64,000 nt of DNA from NCBI RefSeq assembly GCF_008843145.1, contig NZ_CP030265.1:1533001-1597000 (forward strand). Reading direction: 5' to 3'. The notes under the pieces are model-generated. The model did not search any database. It was not told where the DNA came from and saw nothing but the letters and a program-made list of their open reading frames with translations. Origin of the DNA: Skermanella pratensis (GTDB taxonomy: Bacteria; Pseudomonadota; Alphaproteobacteria; Azospirillales; Azospirillaceae). How positions within the stretch are numbered: position 1 is the first letter of the stretch; every line of letters begins with the position of its first letter. Below, one piece after another: positions 41,956 to 43,785 of this stretch. Position numbers and translations under genes: made by a program.

Positions 41956-42061
41956 TGCAAAGCCTTCCGTTTCGAGTATGTTCGGCCCTTGATGCCGGCC
42001 CGTGATGCTGTTGTTGACCTGGGACCGGCCCGGTTTATAACCCAGCGCACGCGAGGACGCC

Positions 42062-43144
42062 ATCAGCACCACACCGAATAACACCGGCGACGCCTATAAG
42101 GATGCCGGTGTTGACATCGACGCCGGCGCTGCTCTCGTCGATGCGATCAAGCCGCTGGCGAAGGCGACTGCCCGGGTCGGAGCGGATGCGGGACTGGGCG
42201 GTTTCGGTGCCCTGTTCGATCTGAAGGCGGCCGGCTACAAGGACCCGATCCTGGTCGCCAGCACCGACGGCGTGGGCACCAAGCTGAAGATCGCCATCGC
42301 CGCCGGCAAGCACGACACGATCGGCATCGACCTCGTCGCCATGAGCGTCAACGACCTCGTGGTCCAGGGCGCCGAGCCGCTGTTCTTCCTCGATTACTTC
42401 GCGACCGGAAAGCTCGACGTCGCGGCCGGCCGGGACATCGTCGCCGGAATCGCCGAGGGCTGCCGGCAGGCCGGATGCGCCCTGATCGGCGGCGAGACGG
42501 CCGAGATGCCGGGCATGTACGCGGGCAAGGACTACGACCTCGCCGGTTTCGCCGTGGGGGCGGCCGAGCGCGGGCAGATCCTGACCGGCGCCGACGTGGC
42601 CGCCGGCGACGTGGTGCTCGGGCTGGCGTCGAGCGGCGTCCATTCCAACGGCTACTCGCTGGTGCGCCGGATCGTCGAGAAGGCCGGGCTGTCCTACCAG
42701 GACGAGGCGCCCTTCGCGCCGGGAACCACGGTCGCCGAAGCCCTGCTGACCCCGACCCGGATCTACGTCAAGCCGGTGCTGGCCGCCGTGCGGGCAGGCA
42801 CCGTCAAGGCGCTGGCCCACATCACCGGCGGCGGCCTGACCGACAATATCCCGCGCGTGCTGCCCGAGGGACTGGGCGTTTCGCTCGACGCTTCGGCGTG
42901 GCCGCTGCTCCCGGTGTTCCGCTGGATGGCGGACTCGGCCGTCATCGGCGACGACGACCTGGCGCGCACCTTCAACTGCGGCATCGGCATGGTTGTCATC
43001 GCCGCGGCGGACAAGGCGGACGAGGCGCAGCGCATCCTGGCGGAGGCCGGCGAGACGGTCTATCGGATCGGCGAAGTGCAGCCCGCGATCGGCGATGTCG
43101 AGCGCGTGGTGATCGACGGAGTGGACACGGCGTGGCACGGCTGA
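42062..43144 (+). CDS. purM: Phosphoribosylformylglycinamidine cyclo-ligase with apparent ATC start
   Basis: The conserved PurM N-terminus ([53 protein letters not shown]) is encoded from about 42080 on, but no ATG, GTG or TTG occurs in frame between the upstream stop at 42038 and GTG 42272. The only sensible start is ATC at 42062 (I-S-T-T-P-N-N), with GAGGA five bases upstream. This gives 360 residues, close to the usual 345-355. Starting at 42272 would delete 70 conserved residues. It catalyses ATP-dependent closure to aminoimidazole ribotide. It overlaps purN. Confidence 0.9.
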
Positions 43145-43785
43145 AGGTCGGTGTCCTGATCTCGGGTCGGGGAAGCAACCTCCAGGCCCTGATCGACGCC
43201 TGCGCCGATCCCGGCTTCCCGGCGGAGATCGTGCTGGTGCTGTCCAACAAGGCCGACGCCTACGGGCTGGAGCGCGCCAGGGCGGCCGGCATTCCGGCAT
43301 CCGTGGTCAGCCACCGGGACTTCGCCGACAAGCCGAGCTTCGAGGCGGCCATGGACGAGGCGCTGAGGTCGGCCGGGGTCGATCTCGTCTGTCTCGCCGG
43401 CTTCATGCGGCTTCTGACGGCCGACTTCGTCGAGCGGTGGCGCGACCGGCTGATCAACATCCATCCCTCGCTGCTGCCGTCCTTCAAGGGGCTCGACACC
43501 CACGCCCGCGCGATCGGGGCCGGCGTGAAGTTCACCGGCTGCACCGTGCATTTCGTCCGCCCCGCCATGGACGAGGGACCGATCATCGTGCAAGCCGTGG
43601 TGCCGGTCCTGCCCGACGACGATGCCCATGCCCTGGGTGACCGCGTGCTGGTCGCCGAACACCGGTGCTATCCCCTGGCCCTCCGCCTGATCGCGGAGGG
43701 CAGGGCCCGCGTCGAGGGGGAACGGGTCGTACTGTCCGACAGCCCGCCCCGGCTGGACGGGCCGGTCCTGAACCCTCCCGCATGA
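43132..43785 (+). CDS. purN: Phosphoribosylglycinamide formyltransferase
   Basis: The 217-residue protein starts from a GTG at 43132 that overlaps the purM stop by 13 bases (translational coupling). [20 protein letters not shown] binds the phosphate. The catalytic Asn and His are in [20 protein letters not shown], and the catalytic Asp is in [10 protein letters not shown]. It transfers formyl from 10-formyl-THF to GAR in purine synthesis. purM-purN order is standard in alphaproteobacteria. Confidence 0.95.

Follow-up and report, generated by a model that had tools for sequence, protein, structure and literature searches.

A conserved AUC codon as the very probable start of purM in an alphaproteobacterial genome

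Where does translation of purM begin when its reading frame offers none of the usual start codons? In the 64,000-nucleotide stretch of DNA analysed here (the window), which lies within one 5.87 Mb contig (G000:C1), the purM frame runs from an in-frame TAA upstream to a TGA at 43142-43144. A sequence-only reading of the locus had stated that the frame holds no ATG, GTG or TTG before position 42272, and had proposed ATC at 42062 as the start; the absence is confirmed over the 77 codons from 42041 to the GTG at 42272. Hereafter AUH denotes an AUC, AUA or AUU start, and NUG an ATG, GTG or TTG start; to our knowledge, few bacterial genes start with AUH. Comparison with related genomes, together with the analogy of better-known genes, leads us to a joint reading to which we give a probability of roughly 0.8: AUC would be the real start of purM, a conserved weak codon that holds PurM low and that, by analogy, would be controlled by initiation factor IF3.

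Translated from the ATC, the product scores 447 bits against the NCBIfam purM profile TIGR00878 (cut-off 236.35) and covers profile positions 2-330 of 332, a full-length match above the curated cut-off that places it in the PurM family. Among solved sequences 22 were matched, and 11 of these align from query residue 5-12; ten of the 11 are named PurM cyclo-ligase and one carries the older name AIR synthetase, the best being the PurM chain 5vk4, aligned from residue 8. The full profile match and the alignments to solved chains therefore indicate that the conserved PurM N-terminus is encoded while the usual start codon is absent, which bears out the earlier statement that the N-terminus is complete. 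A start at GTG 42272 would reduce the score to 375.6 bits, and that codon is an unlikely start because the match would then open only at profile position 62. The features of the locus are collected in Table 1.

Table 1 Features of the purM locus in window coordinates, and the infC locus of the same genome in contig coordinates
Feature	Position	Strand	Basis
TTGACC, -35-like, with a 16-nt spacer to the -10-like hexamer	42014..42019	+	sequence; putative promoter
-10-like hexamer TATAAC, includes in-frame TAA 42038-42040	42036..42041	+	sequence; box recurs in AUH loci
Putative transcription start zone	42044..42049	+	-10 position and A at -18 in relatives
Shine-Dalgarno GAGGA, 4 nt before start codon	42053..42057	+	sequence; spacing conserved
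ATC (AUC), very probable purM start codon	42062..42064	+	sequence, conservation in relatives
purM, phosphoribosylformylglycinamidine cyclo-ligase (AIR synthetase), 360 aa	42062..43144	+	TIGR00878, solved PurM chains
GTG, first NUG codon of purM frame, unlikely start	42272..42274	+	sequence
purN-like frame, GTG start, overlaps purM end	43132..43785	+	sequence, translation
infC of the window's genome (L305), ATA at likely start	G000:C1 near 5,263,240	minus	sequence

The Shine-Dalgarno (SD) sequence is separated from the ATC by CGCC, that is by four bases and not by the five given in the sequence-only reading. The pattern GAGGA-N5-ATC occurs three times in the window against a shuffle mean of 2.78 and is not commoner than that; with a true gap of four it misfits the purM site, whose weight comes from its conservation in relatives and not from the rarity of this pattern. 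Upstream of the SD, the -10 position and an A at -18, which is present in 61% of 54 AUH loci, suggest that the purM leader would measure only some 13-18 nt. Our promoter scan at its threshold listed none near purM, because its rule requires the second hexamer to end in T (position 6), and that base is C in TATAAC. As the in-frame TAA lies inside the -10-like box, it is probably untranscribed, and would be a by-product of the putative promoter. The overlap at the other end of purM suggests translational coupling with the next frame, which we call purN-like from a reading of its sequence.

The start codon was then compared across the family, in which all 82 genomes gave a PurM match and 81 were read in the start region, G008, whose match was partial, being left out. 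AUH stands at the aligned purM start in 66 of the 81 genomes and NUG (ATG, TTG or GTG) in the other 15. The genus of the window (g1) has ATC in all five genomes, as does g6 (5/5), while g2 has ATA in all seven; the 45 Azospirillum genomes (g11), among them the family member Azospirillum brasilense Sp7 with AUC, carry 44 ATC and one ATT, and genera with a single AUH genome have ATT (g3) or ATC (g4, g9 and g10). The NUG genomes comprise all 11 of g12 (ATG), with TTG in g13, ATG in g5 and g7 and GTG in g8. The same purM context within the family thus bears ATC, ATA, ATT, ATG or TTG: at the purM start position G033 reads GAGGACGCC-ATG (GAGGAC-GCC-ATG) and G016 reads GAGGATACC-TTG (GAGGAT-ACC-TTG). 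This replacement of AUH by ATG or TTG at the same spot is the best sequence evidence we have, since it marks the position as a start and not as a chance codon. The sequence-only reading had held that an ATG in relatives at this position would speak against an ATC start; the genus has ATC throughout and the start reading stands, and the ATG of the 11 g12 genomes and the TTG of g13, where the usual codons do occur, mark the place at which translation begins.

A class-wide search found PurM in 289 of 385 alphaproteobacterial genomes. The 119 genomes read outside the family combine the best-scoring loci among the matches listed with loci from an earlier search, and this sample, which favours near relatives and query-like PurM, holds 51 AUH, 63 NUG and 5 ambiguous genomes; over all 200 genomes, with the same bias, the calls are 117 AUH, 78 NUG and 5 ambiguous. 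On these counts the ATC start proposed in the sequence-only reading is well supported. AUH occurs in 29 of 68 family codes, and 21 of these include one or more AUH loci free of NUG over 35 codons. Named AUH records include Kiloniella majae (ATA), Terasakiella sp. PR1 (ATT) and metagenome-assembled genomes labelled Rhodovibrio and Rhodospirillales (ATA), and no AUH call was made among the named records of Nitrobacteraceae (0/14), Methylobacteriaceae (0/6), Phyllobacteriaceae (0/7), Roseobacteraceae (0/5) and Paracoccaceae (0/5). In total 281 loci were called: 78 are strict (AUH with SD and no NUG within 35 codons), 49 have AUH with a good SD and a NUG with a poorer one, 151 are NUG and three are neither. 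Manual revision changed 14 of these calls: five became AUH on homology, two became NUG (one in Xanthobacteraceae, one in family code f38) and seven became ambiguous. Removal of duplicates left 274 rows: 122 AUH (68 ATC, 30 ATA, 24 ATT), 145 NUG and seven ambiguous. At one locus, L232 of G419, the N-terminal region of purM lacks an NUG, and a CTG lies about where GTG stands in other loci with that family code; a CUG start is possible there.

The AUH codon belongs to an initiation site that differs from that of AUG-started purM. In a comparison restricted to a single locus for each genus or named record (51 AUH, 76 AUG), 39 of the 51 AUH loci but 2 of the 76 AUG loci place GAGG precisely at -9 to -6, and CC occupies -2 and -1 in 44 of 51 against 19 of 76. 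Information over -11 to -1 amounts to 10.7 bits in AUH and 1.4 bits in AUG loci, and over -30 to -20 to 2.5 and 0.5 bits. SD strength was used in the AUH calls, so that the presence of an SD is partly built into this result, while its exact spacing is not; the strict loci without NUG, taken alone, have GAGG at -9 to -6 in 23 of 33 and CC at -2 and -1 in 26 of 33. A TATAAT-like box (at least four of six bases) starts between -30 and -24 in 31 of 51 AUH loci (upstream control stretches 11/51 and 15/51) and in 14 of 76 AUG loci (controls 9/76 and 14/76). The purM gene of the window shows what marks an AUH-started gene: no usable NUG, AUH at the homologous N-terminus, an SD at suitable spacing and an AUH conserved in relatives. 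We regard AUC 42062 as very probably the genuine start codon.

In the early coding sequence of the window's purM, a stable hairpin is predicted at 42075-42119 (z -2.56; 42044-42120 folded). It was rejected as a general feature: when the 33 strict loci were folded from +7 to +63 no hairpin common to them was found, and two of the 33 had z below -3 while most lay between -2 and +1.3.

Of the 36 sites of the motif GAGGANRCCATH in the window's genome, only the one at purM is start-like: it alone opens a frame of at least 30 codons that lacks any NUG, whether upstream in frame or in the 39 codons that follow. G048 (4.2 Mb) has a single copy of the motif, again at purM. Four near-identical stretches of the window's genome (L337, L345, L351 and L358) carry GGAGGCCATC before a 29-codon frame and are perhaps a repeated mobile element. 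Of 15 purH, purD and purF loci from five genomes, 14 have an ATG in frame close to the N-terminus, all but purF of G136, and AUH was therefore not seen in these other purine genes. The gene that does share the feature is infC: all of the best-scoring 30 family loci, that of the window's genome included, have ATA preceded by an SD as the likely start codon. In the window's genome a further ATG, with a weaker SD, lies in frame 14 codons upstream, and several of the 30 carry an upstream in-frame NUG as well. Two infC-family matches occur in many Azospirillum genomes (three in G088), against one in the window's genome; a second IF3 could matter for AUH starts.

The AUH start of purM is ordinary in kind, and unusual in its gene and its breadth. 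In E. coli, infC starts with AUU, and pcnB, which acts in RNA polyadenylation, is reportedly limited in expression by an inefficient AUU start, to go by the title of a 2002 paper by Binns and Masters; pcnB would resemble purM in an inefficient AUH start but is a different gene of a different bacterial group. The infC gene resembles purM in having AUH behind a good SD, and differs in that IF3 autoregulates infC, whereas PurM is not an initiation factor; autoregulation of the infC type does not apply, the product being PurM and not the discriminating factor. The sections of PMC13009471 drawn on here give an AUA start for infC of S. aureus, AUA for ccpN and AUU for cvfC1 in Staphylococcus, and AUA for citZ in NCTC 8325 lineages; they report that the ccpN start is conserved from S. 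aureus to B. subtilis, and that in S. aureus reporters AUH reaches about 10% of AUG in poor medium and ccpN AUA up to 30% in rich medium. As far as these sections go, ccpN and cvfC1 share with purM an AUH start with a conserved strong SD, while ccpN is a regulator, cvfC1 a small protein and citZ a lineage-specific enzyme variant; the Staphylococcus starts were demonstrated by ribosome profiling and reporters, whereas that of purM is known here from sequence.

Another parallel is sigR of Streptomyces. The part of PMC5472188 used here states that its GUC start and the repression by IF3 were shown genetically, that SigR falls with extra infC and rises with fidelity alleles, that IF3 represses non-canonical starts, and that the GUC is well conserved in Streptomyces, with no evidence for it in other actinobacterial genera. 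On that account sigR, like purM, has a non-canonical third base, is the first of an overlapping pair and has a misannotated start in genomes, and it differs in its GUC codon and in encoding a sigma factor. The view that non-canonical starts are known mainly from autoregulated genes is too narrow, as the published cases also include sigR, ccpN, cvfC1 and citZ. The part of PMC11497404 consulted contains nothing on AUH starts, and titles and abstracts among the matches listed in the open literature held no report of an AUH start for purM; subscription journals lay mostly outside that search, so novelty is unproven.

The codon is part of an initiation site that is conserved as a whole: a putative promoter close by, a short predicted leader, GAGG at fixed spacing, CC and then AUH. 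Initiator fMet-tRNA would read AUC 42062 with a mismatch at the third position, and the well-placed SD would compensate for the weak codon. Owing to the mismatch, IF3 would reject most initiation attempts, as other genes with non-canonical starts suggest. Synthesis of PurM would then be slow and dependent on IF3 and on initiation fidelity, and PurN may likewise be kept low through its overlapping start. By this analogy the AUC start probably limits PurM translation through IF3; that the limit is physiologically regulated seems doubtful.

Other explanations of the locus must be weighed against this. ATC is one base from ATG, and in a single genome a sequencing error or a strain-specific mutation would look identical; the ATC of all five genus genomes and the AUH of 66 of 81 family genomes refute the error reading and exclude a change private to the strain, leaving it next to no probability, and the distribution suggests that the weak start is ancient. 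Translation could also start elsewhere, either upstream in another frame with frameshifting or at a downstream codon, and 22 of the 45 Azospirillum genomes do have an in-frame ATG downstream of AUH, seven codons before the conserved anchor. This ATG has no SD in any of the 22 (+0.8 kcal/mol), however, and the remaining 23 have another codon there, e.g. ACG or GCG; in the window the next NUG would drop profile positions 2-61, and for an upstream start the leader would be too short if the putative promoter is right. A start elsewhere is thus very improbable. The later ATG without SD (L020, L136-L146 and other Azospirillum loci) is a likely place for start misannotation. Alternatively, nucleotide pools might shift the 5' end of the mRNA and hence ribosome binding, with AUH merely sensitising the system; the -10-like box and the C-rich start zone that recur at fixed distance in AUH loci would suit such a choice of transcription start, but the 33 strict loci, folded from +7 to +63, share no hairpin, and we consider it improbable.

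A neutral start is a more serious contender, though possible rather than probable: AUH would be real but weak, an ancient loss of AUG tolerated through the fixed SD, with no regulatory role. In its favour, the third base changes 21 times among the 122 AUH rows of the 274-row tree, close to what 79 fourfold sites show in those rows (median 26); the preferred reading takes this count to mean that the AUH class persists and not one codon. AUH and NUG interchange frequently, with 32 changes on the 274-row tree and 23 on a 116-row tree, in which AUH is absent from one 36-row group. Nor is G clearly avoided, for among 248 ATN rows the third base changes 42 times and G against non-G alone 30 times, and this ratio of 0.71, compared with a mean of 0.54 at fourfold sites, does not demonstrate avoidance of AUG. 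Of 118 fourfold sites in Azospirillum, 19 are conserved to the same degree as the third base of the start. These third-base tests do not show selection against AUG, and in part speak against strong selection. Against neutrality, 29 family codes have AUH even though a single mutation would yield AUG, and its site, unlike that of AUG-started purM, is largely fixed in sequence and spacing. An ancestral AUH with many losses would fit the pattern, repeated gains being the alternative; the unrooted 116-row tree has a weak backbone, and its well-supported branches force only three AUH/NUG changes.

PurN is among the purine enzymes that draw on 10-formyl-tetrahydrofolate. As this compound supplies purines and fMet-tRNA alike, and initiation fidelity responds to one-carbon metabolism (both from the part of the review PMC7949028 used here), the AUH start might be an ancient metabolic gauge that ties purM-purN translation to fMet-tRNA supply and initiation fidelity. 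We think this a long shot; if true, the gauge would couple purine synthesis to one-carbon status and translation capacity.

The preferred reading, a real and conserved AUC start that would hold PurM low, has consequences for annotation. Rules that admit ATG, GTG and TTG alone are unable to locate the start of purM in AUH genomes. The natural series of AUC, AUA, AUU, AUG and UUG at one site bears on why cells keep a bad start codon. As purM is a core biosynthetic gene with AUH, within a nearly fixed initiation site, in 29 of the 68 alphaproteobacterial family codes read, its AUH start could be among the most widespread after that of infC.
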